The position numbers and the translations under genes were made by a program. Shown one piece after another: positions 6,616 to 11,377 of a stretch of 37,884 bases of DNA; within the stretch, counting starts at the first letter, position 1, and each line of letters starts with the position of its first letter. Location of the stretch: the NCBI GenBank assembly GCA_003224235.1, contig QHYU01000160.1:1-37884 (forward strand). Direction: 5' to 3'. The notes below the pieces were generated by a model. That model was not told where the DNA came from. It made no database searches and saw nothing but the letters and a program-made list of their open reading frames with translations. The stretch comes from Acidobacteriota bacterium (GTDB taxonomy: Bacteria > Acidobacteriota > Terriglobia > Acidiferrales > UBA7541).

Positions 6616-7533
6616 CTACCGCGGCCTGGAGAGGGTCTCTTCGCCACGCCCGCCCAGCGCCGCGTCGCGGTTGTTCGCGCTGGCCGGGCGGGCGCCTTCC
6701 AAGGCGCGGGCGGCGGCACGGCGGCGAACGATCAGGTGCACAAGGAACATCAGCACCAGAACGCCCCCGAAGGTACAGACGATGGTGGCGCCGGTGGGCA
6801 GATCGAGCACCACGGAGAGATAAACGCCCAGCGCGGAGACCAGCGTGCCCATCGTCCAGCCGATGGCCAGCCGCGGCCCGATCCGGTCCGCGAACAGCAT
6901 CGCCCCCACCGACGGCACGATCAGGTAGCAGAACACCAGCAAAACGCCGGCGATGGCCACCGACGAAGTGACCACAAATCCGAACGAAGCGTAAAACAGG
7001 AAATCCCACAGGCGGATGGAAACGCCCTGCGCTTCGGCCTCCTCCGGGTGCATTGAGATGAGCAGAAACTTTTTGCGGAAAAGGTAGTGGAACAGGCCAA
7101 TGCCACCGTAGAGCAGCGCCGTGCGTTCGACCTCCGCCTTGGAAACCGCCAGGATATTGCCGACGAGCATGTCCTTGAGGTGTTCTGTTTCGCCGGTGGC
7201 CTTGCTCATGGCCAGGATAGCGGCGGCCGAAGCCACGGCATAGGCGATGCCGATGAAGGCTTCCTGCGGGATGTGGCCGCGGCGAGTGCGGGCCAGCGCG
7301 AAGATCGCAGCACCCAAAAACGTGAAGCCCAGGCTGATCCAATAGGAGGTGCCGCCGTGGGGATCCATGCCGACCAGAATGGCGACTGTCGCCCCGAGCG
7401 CCGCAATCTGGGCCAGCGCCAAGTCCACGAAGATGACGCCGCGCTCGACCACGTGCACGCCCAGGTAGGCGTGGATGCCGGTGAGAATCAGGCTGGCCAA
7501 GAACGGCCAACGCAAAAACTCAAGGACTTCCAT
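6616..7533 (-). CDS. zinc/manganese-type ABC transporter permease
   Basis: This 305-residue integral membrane protein belongs to the ABC-3 (ZnuB/MntB/TroC) permease family, which moves Zn2+ or Mn2+ through the inner membrane. About eight hydrophobic spans are visible, with the family stretch YVGVHVVERG-like YLGVHVVERGVIFVDLALAQ near residues 22-45 and the coupling region near VSIRLWDFLFY. The start at 7533 is supported by GGAGGT a few bases upstream; the longer ATG at 7578 would overlap the binding-protein gene. It lies 28 nt after the binding-protein gene. No ATPase gene lies in the operon, so the energising subunit must be encoded elsewhere or the system is incomplete. Confidence 0.88.
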   Translation of the reverse strand: MEVLEFLRWPFLASLILTGIHAYLGVHVVERGVIFVDLALAQIAALGATVAILVGMDPHGGTSYWISLGFTFLGAAIFALARTRRGHIPQEAFIGIAYAVASAAAILAMSKATGETEHLKDMLVGNILAVSKAEVERTALLYGGIGLFHYLFRKKFLLISMHPEEAEAQGVSIRLWDFLFYASFGFVVTSSVAIAGVLLVFCYLIVPSVGAMLFADRIGPRLAIGWTMGTLVSALGVYLSVVLDLPTGATIVCTFGGVLVLMFLVHLIVRRRAAARALEGARPASANNRDAALGGRGEETLSRPR

Positions 7534-7561
7534 GCTACCTCCGGTCTGCGGGCGCGACGCG

Positions 7562-8509
7562 CTAACGCGTAGCAGCAAACGCCTTGGTCAGCAGCGCTAT
7601 ATCGTAATCGAACAGCTTGAAATAGTCGGTAACTTCCTTCTCGCCGCCCACCGAAGGCAGCAAGACGATCACCTGGGCCCCGGTTTCGCGCGCTATGGCG
7701 TTCGGGGTCTTCAAGTCAAAGTACGGCTCGACCAGGATCAACTTTACCTTTTCGCGCTTCATCAGTTGGATTAGCTCGACCGTGTGCGCGGGGCTGGGCG
7801 GGATGCCGGGCCGCGGCTCGACATACCCCACCACCTCGATGCCAAAGTGCTTGGCAAAATTCGGCCAGGAGCGGTGGTAGGTGACCACCTTGAGCCCGCG
7901 CAGCGGCTTCATCTCTTCGAGCCACTTCTTGTCTTCGTTCTCCAGGCGCTGGCGGAACGACTCGTAGCGCTGGGCGAAGTAAGCGGCGTCATTGGGCCGC
8001 ATCTCGCTGAGCTTTTGCTCGATGCCGCGGGCGATGCGGAGACCGTTTTCCGGGTCGAGCCAGTAGTGCGGGTTGCCCAGGGGATGGACGTCGCCCATCG
8101 CGCGGGTCACCTGCGTGGTGGGAATCTCCAAAATCTCCGCAAACTGCGAGGCGTCCAGATAGCCCGGCGCGGCGGGCTGAATCTTCGGGTTGCCGCACTG
8201 GGTGATCAGCGGGGGAAGCCAGCCGATCTCCAGTTGCAACCCCACCATGATGAGCAAGTCCGCGTGTTTCAGCTTGAGCAGAAAGCTGGGTTTGGCCTCG
8301 ACAAAGTGCGGGTCCTGGTAGCCGCGGGCGATCGATTCGACCTCCACACGGTCGCCACCCACTTCCTGGGCCAGCGCCGCCAGATCGGTGGTCGACGTGA
8401 CAATGTACAGTTTCCCTGCGGCGCGAGCCGGCGCGGCAGAACCCGCGGCGGTGACCACGGCTGCCGCAGCGAGCGCAAGGACATATAAGCGACTCGATCG
8501 TTGAGTCAT
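7562..8509 (-). CDS. ZnuA/TroA-type metal-binding lipoprotein or periplasmic protein
   Basis: The 315-residue protein has a signal peptide (ending APARAAG) and a TroA-like cluster A-1 metal-binding fold. Candidate metal ligands are His in YQDPHFVEAKP, His in GNPHYWLDPENG, His in VVTYHRSWPNFAKHFG, and an acidic residue in LVEPYFD. The conserved central helix and the VGYVEPRPGIPPSPAH segment are present. The long His/Asp-rich loop of many zinc-specific ZnuA proteins is missing, so Zn2+ or Mn2+ remains open. The start at 8509 is chosen for the Shine-Dalgarno TAGGAG, whose TAG is also the stop codon of the upstream porin-like gene, suggesting coupling. It delivers metal to the permease encoded next. 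Confidence 0.88.
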   Translation of the reverse strand: MTQRSSRLYVLALAAAAVVTAAGSAAPARAAGKLYIVTSTTDLAALAQEVGGDRVEVESIARGYQDPHFVEAKPSFLLKLKHADLLIMVGLQLEIGWLPPLITQCGNPKIQPAAPGYLDASQFAEILEIPTTQVTRAMGDVHPLGNPHYWLDPENGLRIARGIEQKLSEMRPNDAAYFAQRYESFRQRLENEDKKWLEEMKPLRGLKVVTYHRSWPNFAKHFGIEVVGYVEPRPGIPPSPAHTVELIQLMKREKVKLILVEPYFDLKTPNAIARETGAQVIVLLPSVGGEKEVTDYFKLFDYDIALLTKAFAATR

Positions 8510-8517
8510 AAGGGCTC

Positions 8518-9760
8518 CTAGAAAGGATGGGCGCCGTGAGCGCCCAGCACGAACAGGAATTGGAAGCGCAGCTCGTTGGCGTCTTGCTTCTCGGCATAGC
8601 GCGCGAAGCGATACTGTCCGCGCACCTGGCTGAACTCGGAGGGCCAATAGGTCAGCAGAGCGGAGAACCCGCTGTCAGTCAGGTTGGCCTGGCGCGCGCG
8701 GTCGGAGCGATCGTACCGCGCGCCGACGGTCCAGCGCCGGTTGAGGCGATACTCACCGGAAGTATAGAAGCCGAAGGCCCGCTGCGTCTCGGGCAGCAGC
8801 AGCGCCGCGGAGAGTTGATCGCGATGGCTCCAGACCAGTTCGGTGCGCGCGAGGAAGTGATGGTAGATGGAGCGGCGCAGCGGCTTCCAGCGCAGGGTGG
8901 CGTCGAGGCCGTAGAGTTGGGTGTGAAAGGCGGAGCCGACGTCGTTATGCCCGAAAGCGTAGGAGAAGCCGAGATCCACGTTGGTGGACTCGCTTAAGTC
9001 GCGGTAGCCGCGCAGGTGTCCGACATAGCTGACGTCCTTCCTCCCGGTGGCGGTAAAGACGTTGGCGGAATCCCCGCGGTAAACCTGCGCTGTCCCCTCG
9101 AGAAAAATCCCCTTCGGCGCGGGGAGAATGCGCGTGACCGACAAGCCGGCGTCGTTGATACCGTCCGTGATTGTGGATCATGTTCACCTTGCCGAAGGCC
9201 GCGCGCATCTTGCCCACTCGCGCCACCAGCCCCGCCGGCAGCGAAGTAAACGTCAGGTAGCCCTCTTCCACATTTACGCCGCTTTCGCCGAAGGAAATGA
9301 AAAAGTCGCCGCGGGCGTAGGGATCGATGATGGCCTGCAAGCCCACCTCGGATTCGTGCAGCTCAAGCCCGGGGACTGGCCGCACGCGGTTGCGCCCAAC
9401 GGCTCCCAAGAAGTCGCCGATCACGCTGATATCGGGATTGAGCGCCTTGGCCGCGGCACTGGCTCCGCCATAGATTGGCAGCGGGCCGGCCTGCGCTTGA
9501 GCAGCATTAGCCGCGGGTTCTGGGGAGGAGGAGAGGCCGGCGGGACCGGGGGTGGCTTCTGCCTCGGCAACTGGGGCAGCGGCTGAAGCCAGCAATAACC
9601 TCAGTGGGGCGGCCTGCGGCTCCCGAATCTTGGCGACCATTGGGGCCCGCGCAGCCTTCAGCGCCTCCTTAAGCAGAGTGAGCTCGTCCTCGAGGGCCCG
9701 GACGCGCTGCTCGAGCATGGCTAGGCGGTCGTCTCTCACAATCTCAGGGGGCAATGGCAC
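8518..9760 (-). pseudogene. frameshifted porin-like outer-membrane protein
   Basis: Two reading frames together encode one barrel protein. The first (9760 down to about 9166) holds a coiled coil (LEQRVRALEDELTLLKEAL), a Pro/Ala-rich linker and barrel strands through VGKMRAAFGKVNMIHNHG. The second (about 9165 down to 8518) resumes with DGINDAGLSVTRILP and runs through barrel strands to a C-terminal Phe. The join near 9165 lacks the family's usual connecting segment (a LPW.DRP-like stretch), so a deletion not divisible by three is likely. There is also no signal peptide: the best Shine-Dalgarno/ATG (about 9772) opens a frame that stops after eight codons. Its operon position suggests a metal-uptake porin, now probably inactive, or else a sequencing error. 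Confidence 0.65.
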
Positions 9761-9819
9761 CGCTTCGCATGGCGAAACTCCTACAAGAGATTTTTAGATA
9801 GCCCAGGGATGAGGTTCGT

Positions 9820-10089
9820 TTACGTTAGCGGAGGGGCGCGGGGGGCGCTGGCTTCACTTCGCCGGTTCTGCGCGCTTGCCCGGTCCGGCTCGGCAACCAG
9901 GCGCAAGGTTAACAGGGTCACCGTTAGGCCCGGGTCCGCGGAGAGAATCGCCCAAGCTCCGAAAGCGCAGACCCCACAAAAGTGGCCGGCGTTACGAGCG
10001 GGGACCGCTTCCACCCAAACGTGCACCTGCGCAGCGATCAAGAAAACCAGGATGGCCAGCGCGAGCAGGCGGGTTGACGGTTGGCGCAT
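9820..10089 (-). CDS. small membrane/exported protein with CxxC
   Basis: The 89-residue product has one N-terminal hydrophobic segment (LLALAILVFLIAAQVHVWVE) that could be a signal peptide or anchor, then HFCGVCAFGAWA with a CxxC pair next to a histidine, and an Arg/Ala/Pro-rich tail. This layout resembles small DUF2946-like proteins encoded with metal-uptake genes, but the match is only by shape. The ATG at 10089 is chosen over 10140 because AGGGTAGG precedes it and a promoter lies just upstream. It is the first gene of the metal-uptake operon and lies 59 nt before the broken porin gene. Confidence 0.6.
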   Translation of the reverse strand: MRQPSTRLLALAILVFLIAAQVHVWVEAVPARNAGHFCGVCAFGAWAILSADPGLTVTLLTLRLVAEPDRASAQNRRSEASAPRAPPLT

Positions 10090-10101
10090 ACACCTACCCT
10101 G

Positions 10102-10140
10102 CATAGGAGCCAGCCTATGGGAACTAAGGTTGCCCGTCAA
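10102..10140 (-). promoter_or_regulatory. promoter and palindrome of the metal-uptake operon
   Basis: On the minus strand TTGACG (10140-10135) is followed after 17 nt by TAGGCT (10117-10112). The arms CATAGG (10102-10107) and CCTATG (10114-10119) form a 6-6-6 inverted repeat over the -10 and start region, a suitable place for a metal-responsive repressor. The identity of the regulator is not shown by the sequence. Confidence 0.45.
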
Positions 10141-10207
10141 GCGCGGGACGCGACCGCACTGTCAGCGGCTGGGTGACTTCTGCGCGGCCCGGTGGGGGCA
10201 CATTTAG

Positions 10208-10235
10208 TTGACCCATCCGGCAGCGGGGCTACAAT
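10208..10235 (+). promoter_or_regulatory. strong sigma70-type promoter of the 6S-like RNA
   Basis: TTGACC (10208-10213) and TACAAT (10230-10235) are 16 nt apart, each 5/6 to consensus. The predicted transcription start is near 10242, exactly where the rod-shaped RNA begins to pair. Confidence 0.7.
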
Positions 10236-10241
10236 GGGAGC

Positions 10242-10476
10242 GGAGTAGGCCTGCGACGCGCGTGTTGGCGCGACGATCTTTTGAACCAACACTGGATCTC
10301 TGGGGGCCCGAGTCAGACGGCCGGTGCGCATGGCCCGCCCCGCATCTTGAATCCCGACGCTCTGAGATCGGCATTCAGGATGCGGGACGGGAAAGCCTAA
10401 AGGCCGGCGCAGGGCGCCCATCTTATACAGAGGTTCAGGATCTAGCGCCCACGGCGAAGCGGACCTCTCCTTTTTT
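10242..10476 (+). ncRNA. ssrS: 6S RNA candidate
   Basis: The stretch folds by hand into one long rod. 10242-10249 pairs with 10464-10470; 10251-10264 with 10450-10462; 10267-10271 with 10445-10449; 10275-10287 with 10432-10442; 10301-10309 with 10412-10420. A large central bubble follows (10310-10333 opposite 10392-10411, with a small GCC-TAAA-GGC hairpin on its 3' side). The apical helix is 10334-10352/10373-10391 (17 Watson-Crick pairs, one wobble, one mismatch), capped by CCGA/TCGG. T6 (10471-10476) ends it. Rod shape, central bubble, 3'-side bubble hairpin, own promoter and terminator fit 6S RNA, the RNA polymerase-sigma70 decoy. The position before a ymdB-type gene and downstream of zapA agrees. 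It is longer than E. coli 6S. Confidence 0.7.
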
Positions 10477-10573
10477 ATTGTGTTGGAAGTCAGGTTGGAG
10501 CTGGCCGATACTGCCAGATGGCAATTGATCTCAGGCGTCTCCATCCTCTAACCTCCAACCTCTAACTTCCGGC

Positions 10574-11377
10574 ATGCGTATCCTGTTCATCGGCGACATT
10601 GTGGGCTCGCCCGGCCGGCACATTGTGGCCGAGCGGCTGGCCGATCTCGTCGCGCAGCAGAAAATCGACCTGGTGATTGCCAACTGCGAGAACGCCGCCT
10701 CGGGCTTCGGCATCACGCCGCGGCTGGTGGAAGAACTGCTGGGCACCGGCATTGAGGTCCTGTCGGGCGGCAATCACAGCTTCGACCGCAAGGAGATCCT
10801 GGACTACTTCCCGCACCAGCCGCGCTTGCTGCGCCCCGCGAACTATCCCAACGGGGCTCCTGGAAGCGGGCTCTACATCGGCGCCGCCAAGAACGGCGTC
10901 GGCTGCGCCGTGCTCAATCTGCAGGGGCGCGTCTTCATGGCTGCGCTCGACTGCCCGTTCCGCACCGCCGACCGCGAACTCGCGCGGATTCCGCCGGACG
11001 TCAAGGTGGTTCTGGTGGACATGCACGCCGAAGCCACGAGCGAAAAGCTGGCGATGGGCTGGTACCTGGACGGCCGGGTCACCGCGGTGGTGGGCACGCA
11101 CACCCATGTGGCCACCGCCGATGAGCAACTGCTCCCGCAAGGTACGGCTTATATCACCGACGTCGGCATGACCGGTCCGCACGACTCGGTCATTGGCATG
11201 GAGAAGGCCCCAATCCTGCGGCGGTTCCTTGACGGGTTGCCCGCGCGCTTTGAGGTCGGTTCCGGCAACGTGCAGATGAATGCCGTGCTACTCGATGTGG
11301 ATGAGTCCGGCCCGCTGGGCCCGGCGGGCCGCGCCTGTGCCCGCTCGATCCAGCGCCTACGCTTCCGCAGCGATTAA
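10574..11377 (+). CDS. YmdB-family metallophosphoesterase (cyclic nucleotide phosphodiesterase)
   Basis: The 267-residue protein matches the TIGR00282/YmdB family of calcineurin-like phosphoesterases that hydrolyse 2',3'-cyclic nucleotides. Metal-binding motifs are in order: GDIVGSPGR (residues 6-14), NCENAASGFGITP, GGNHSFDRKE, DMHAEATSEK and GTHTHVATADE, followed by TAYITDVGMTGP. Length is normal for the family. No convincing Shine-Dalgarno precedes the ATG; instead a pyrimidine tract (10542-10568) contains ACCTCC. In related genomes this gene is often preceded by rny and the 6S RNA gene; here rny is absent and the 6S candidate ends 97 nt upstream. Confidence 0.87.
   Translation: MRILFIGDIVGSPGRHIVAERLADLVAQQKIDLVIANCENAASGFGITPRLVEELLGTGIEVLSGGNHSFDRKEILDYFPHQPRLLRPANYPNGAPGSGLYIGAAKNGVGCAVLNLQGRVFMAALDCPFRTADRELARIPPDVKVVLVDMHAEATSEKLAMGWYLDGRVTAVVGTHTHVATADEQLLPQGTAYITDVGMTGPHDSVIGMEKAPILRRFLDGLPARFEVGSGNVQMNAVLLDVDESGPLGPAGRACARSIQRLRFRSD

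Follow-up and report, generated by a model that had tools for sequence, protein, structure and literature searches.

Identity of the locus

In a stretch of 37,884 nt from an uncultivated Acidobacteriota bacterium (Terriglobia, Acidiferrales; contig QHYU01000160.1 of assembly GCA_003224235.1; hereafter the window), a 235-nt segment pairs with itself from end to end, which raises the question of what kind of RNA, if any, is encoded there. From the letters alone, a first-pass annotation had proposed a 6S RNA, long and divergent enough that annotation pipelines could miss it. We searched the window with cmscan against all Rfam models at their gathering thresholds and obtained a single match, RF00013 (6S/SsrS), at 10245-10469 on the plus strand (65.5 bits, E 6e-11, model positions 1-187 of 187). 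The segment was thus placed in the 6S class over the full model and in no other class. A family model, R1, matches at 10241-10471, and both matches and the stability of the fold support a 6S RNA at 10242-10470 (+). No second copy was found in the genome when RF00013 was searched down to E 10. Covariation, the -10 box and the gene order zapA-6S-ymdB agree with this assignment. The analysis covered the sequence, its promoter and rod fold, covariation, the neighbouring genes and the family assignment, and on these grounds the locus is almost certainly a 6S RNA gene, present once in the genome and equipped with a housekeeping promoter of its own.

Of the proposed oddity of this RNA only a part remains. 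It is indeed long (approximately 230 nt), and several relatives do score below the Rfam cut-off. However, the window's copy passes the curated gathering score of 46.4 bits, so pipelines would not miss it. It is a real and correctly recognised 6S RNA, an ordinary member of its family that standard pipelines annotate, and its only peculiarity is a longer hairpin at the tip. It shares with RF00013 members the full-length match, the rod with closing stem, bubble and apical arm, a predicted promoter of its own and a zapA gene nearby.

Two other RNA classes were considered. The 6S-flavo family (RF01685), a 6S-type family listed for Bacteroidetes (PMC2864571), gave no match in the window by cmscan. 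Ms1 RNA, which occurs in Actinobacteria beside its own set of neighbour genes, was rejected, as the window has zapA, znuAB-type genes and ymdB as neighbours and its relatives are Acidobacteriota.

Promoter and predicted transcript ends

The promoter that had been read from the letters, TTGACC-16-TACAAT at 10208-10235, was recovered by a scan for sigma-70-like sites: on either strand of 9800-10700 it is the one site found, while 0.2 were expected. Its -35 box TTGACC lies at 10208-10213 and its -10 box TACAAT at 10230-10235, both on the plus strand. A -10 hexamer of the TANAAT type (A at positions 2 and 4, T at position 6) stands about 6-8 bases 5' of GGAG in 30/30 relatives, thus initiation is conserved; a -35 box can be made out in some of these 30 only. 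The GGAG begins at 10242, where transcription had been proposed to start at the outset of the self-pairing segment, and it pairs with the CTCC ending at 10470, so that the ends of the rod meet as described. Directly after this last pair follows the predicted T6 (10471-10476, +). From promoter, terminal pair and T-run we infer 10242 and 10470 as start and end of the 6S RNA. Together with the closing stem the T6 probably forms an intrinsic terminator, and intrinsic termination is likely at this site. Runs of at least five T were detected in about half of the 30 relatives; consequently, such termination is not general in the family.

Rod structure and central bubble

The 235-nt segment folds as one end-to-end rod, as had been claimed (-122.6 kcal/mol, z -6.44), and none of 200 shuffled sequences was as stable. 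The fold comprises the closing stem, central bubble and apical arm by which members of the 6S family are recognised. On the plus strand, the closing stem is built from a 5' strand at 10242-10287, which ends in UGAACC, and a 3' strand at 10432-10470, which runs from GGUUCA to CUCC; their pairing is seen in the fold and in the covariation. The 5' side of the bubble, AACACTGGATCTC (10288-10300, +), falls into strongly conserved alignment columns and is the likely start of pRNA synthesis, while its 3' side, TCTTATACAGA (10421-10431, +), is delimited by the fold. The apical arm (10301-10420, +) comprises helices 7-9 of the covariation count.

Two details of the first-pass annotation required revision. 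An apical helix of 17 Watson-Crick pairs had been described, but the helix in fact starts with 4 pairs (10334-10337/10388-10391), is interrupted by a 1x1 mismatch and continues with 14 uninterrupted pairs (10339-10352/10373-10386), one of which is U-G; a few more pairs follow above a further mismatch. The small hairpin proposed for the 3' side of the bubble does not appear in the minimum-energy fold, but a version of 3-4 bp can form. In 30/30 relatives, hairpins of 3-5 bp are possible at this place, which is weak evidence as the count comes without a chance control.

The same architecture is found in 6S-1 RNA. There, the 3' side of the bubble is described as carrying a small hairpin that exists in equilibrium (PMC8876501), and a hairpin of this type can be drawn at the corresponding place in the window's RNA. 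Polymerase binding and pRNA synthesis have been demonstrated for 6S-1 RNA and are predicted for the RNA described here, which most likely follows the mechanism of its family: the transcript would accumulate during slow or stationary growth, and its central bubble, imitating a melted promoter, would bind the sigma-70-type RNA polymerase holoenzyme and thereby repress many housekeeping promoters. Once nucleotides become plentiful, the polymerase would begin a short pRNA within the 5' side of the bubble (10288-10300) and extend it back through GAACC, and this synthesis would refold the 6S RNA and release the enzyme. The conserved stretch UUUGAACCAACAC would serve as template. The bubble sequence is conserved in the 30-sequence alignment.

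Conservation and covariation among relatives

The named relatives in the genome collection are Acidobacteriota metagenome bins (Terriglobia, Candidatus Acidiferrales). Of 61 genomes (60 relatives plus the one that holds the window), 43 matched RF00013 at E <=0.001 and 34 scored above the cut-off. Clear 6S RNAs such as those at L047:5684-5917 and L048:5658-5918, among others, go unreported at the gathering score; thus RF00013 under-calls this family of Acidobacteriota.

Compensatory changes were sought in an alignment of 30 sequences from the family and order. RNAalifold alone, applied to the plain alignment, gave 34 pairs, 13 of them with changes on both sides, and it lost the closing stem and the tip because the 5' ends of some rows are off by a base and the tip varies in length. 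We therefore replaced this result by the window's own fold, restricted to the pairs available to a majority of rows. In the resulting 60 rod pairs, 24 of the 60 have changed on both sides. Over 60 pairs and 30 sequences, 91.5% of the cells are paired, compared with 38.7-44.1% in slid controls (partners displaced by 1-3 columns), and 134 cells have changed on both sides, compared with 34-58 in slid and 47.5 in shuffled controls. Since the structure was taken from the window's fold and then trimmed with this very alignment, it is somewhat favoured over the controls; the excess of paired cells is to some degree built in, and the excess of double changes is less affected. The covariance model made from the alignment found ten relatives outside its training set with E-values of 1e-41 to 1e-51.

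The apical tip

While most relatives have a 6S RNA of about 185-205 nt, it measures about 230 nt in the window and in its only same-genus relative, and the surplus sits in the tip of the apical arm. Between the conserved motifs GUGxGCA and AGCCU, tip length ranges from 17 to 216 nt across the family. The motif search did not work for about a dozen rows; all tips with correctly placed boundaries fold as hairpins. The window's tip measures 63 nt, and its hairpin has a z of -4.67 (10328-10396). Fold stability, single copy and length comparison mark 10334-10391 (+) as the lengthened, genus-specific part.

An origin of this tip from a dispersed repeat was rejected, as the 63 nt are single copy and other matches in the genome span 14-20 bases at E 3. 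The core palindrome GCATTCAGGATGC occurs 8 times in the genome at up to 1 mismatch, compared with 2 occurrences of a reversed control, which does not suffice for a repeat family. A more extreme case was observed in genome G028 (L139:2335-2719, minus strand), where the 6S RNA reaches 385 nt with both arms and the bubble intact; the added length comes from an apical tip of 216 nt, which again folds as a hairpin. This large insert, too, is single copy in its genome, and a repeat origin was rejected.

The lengthened apical hairpin probably reaches beyond the part that binds polymerase and is tolerated as an extension. For B. subtilis 6S-1 RNA, truncated versions reduced to the bubble and two short arms are reported to go through the whole cycle, with an affinity about tenfold lower (PMC8876501), which fits a tolerant apical end. 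The variation would appear neutral or mildly tuned, located where polymerase binding imposes the least constraint. That the tip, which is hypervariable in this family, has instead gained an added role as an expansion segment in some genera, the window's included, is unlikely; candidate roles would be those such as a site for a double-strand-specific nuclease, or a protein-binding arm that tunes processing or release of the 6S RNA.

Possible decay in a neighbouring genus and the pseudogene reading

In a neighbouring genus, the 6S locus at L045:4620-4779 (the same place as G002:C25:12321-12480) has kept the -10 box and the 5' half, but its 3' arm is mostly missing (36.6 bits). This is a truncated or decaying copy, or else a misassembly. 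One might consequently ask whether the window's locus descends from a 6S gene as well but no longer works, given this largely lost 3' arm so close by and the unusual tip. However, the window's copy shows no damage to its promoter, to either arm, to the bubble sequence or to the T-run, its fold ranks with the most stable ones in the family, and the same-genus relative G001 retains a full-length copy of 187 bits. We thus regard a 6S-derived pseudogene as very improbable and retain the reading as an intact 6S RNA gene.

Gene neighbourhood

The gene downstream of the 6S RNA is YmdB-like (PF13277, 10574-11377, +; 339 bits), in agreement with the position that had been proposed. The ancestral upstream neighbour zapA (PF05164, 5799-6200, +) was identified by its Pfam match and by comparison of contexts. 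The order zapA-6S-ymdB is found in most relatives and recurs in the class, often with dnaA next. In the window, zapA and the 6S RNA are separated by minus-strand genes matching the ABC-3 permease and ZnuA families (znuAB-type). This set at 6616-9760 comprises an ABC-3 permease, a ZnuA-type binding protein and ORFs without Pfam match, and it is common to the window's genus, genus g2 and G018. A zapA gene beside ssrS is a known arrangement in beta- and gamma-proteobacteria (PMC7641849). In contrast to proteobacterial 6S RNA genes, which have ygfA or an EVE gene downstream, the window has ymdB. In one record titled Nitrospirae, a c-di-GMP-I riboswitch match (L066:3490-3591, minus strand, 45.8 bits) lies just upstream of a 6S gene on the opposite strand.

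In most relatives, approximately 100 nt separate the 6S RNA from ymdB, which follows on the same strand, an arrangement that would also suit a cis-acting leader or attenuator of ymdB merely resembling a 6S RNA. However, the RF00013 match is full-length, the structure ends at CTCC-T6 well short of ymdB, and 6S is linked to zapA both in the class and in distant phyla. In Syntrophales-type relatives (L081, L088, L096) it is next to zapA, with ymdB some 2 kb away; thus 6S is not tied to ymdB. We consider a leader extremely unlikely. A chance inverted repeat or coding region deserves practically no credence: two ORFs do overlap the segment (10208-10528, +, and 10137-10544, -; 106 and 135 aa), but no Pfam family matches the plus-strand ORF, aligned relatives differ by indels of many sizes that ignore the reading frame, and the fold z of -6.44 and the covariation speak against both versions; the RF00013 match and the covariation already exclude them.

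Significance and apparent loss in relatives

The locus adds a well-supported 6S RNA from uncultivated Acidobacteriota, and demonstrates that a 6S RNA can be recognised from its architecture alone by reading a sequence without tools. Its comparative value is modest and lies in the under-calling by RF00013 in this phylum and in an apical tip that varies more than tenfold in length. Apparent loss and decay in the relatives are of more interest than the window's locus itself. In genus g13 (G013, G023, G030, G036; L140-L143), zapA stands directly before ymdB and leaves no room for a 6S RNA. In all four genomes (91-97% complete), neither RF00013 nor the family model gave a convincing match elsewhere. 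Genus g13 has thus apparently lost its 6S RNA, and such a loss would make the genus a natural experiment on what cells need 6S RNA for.
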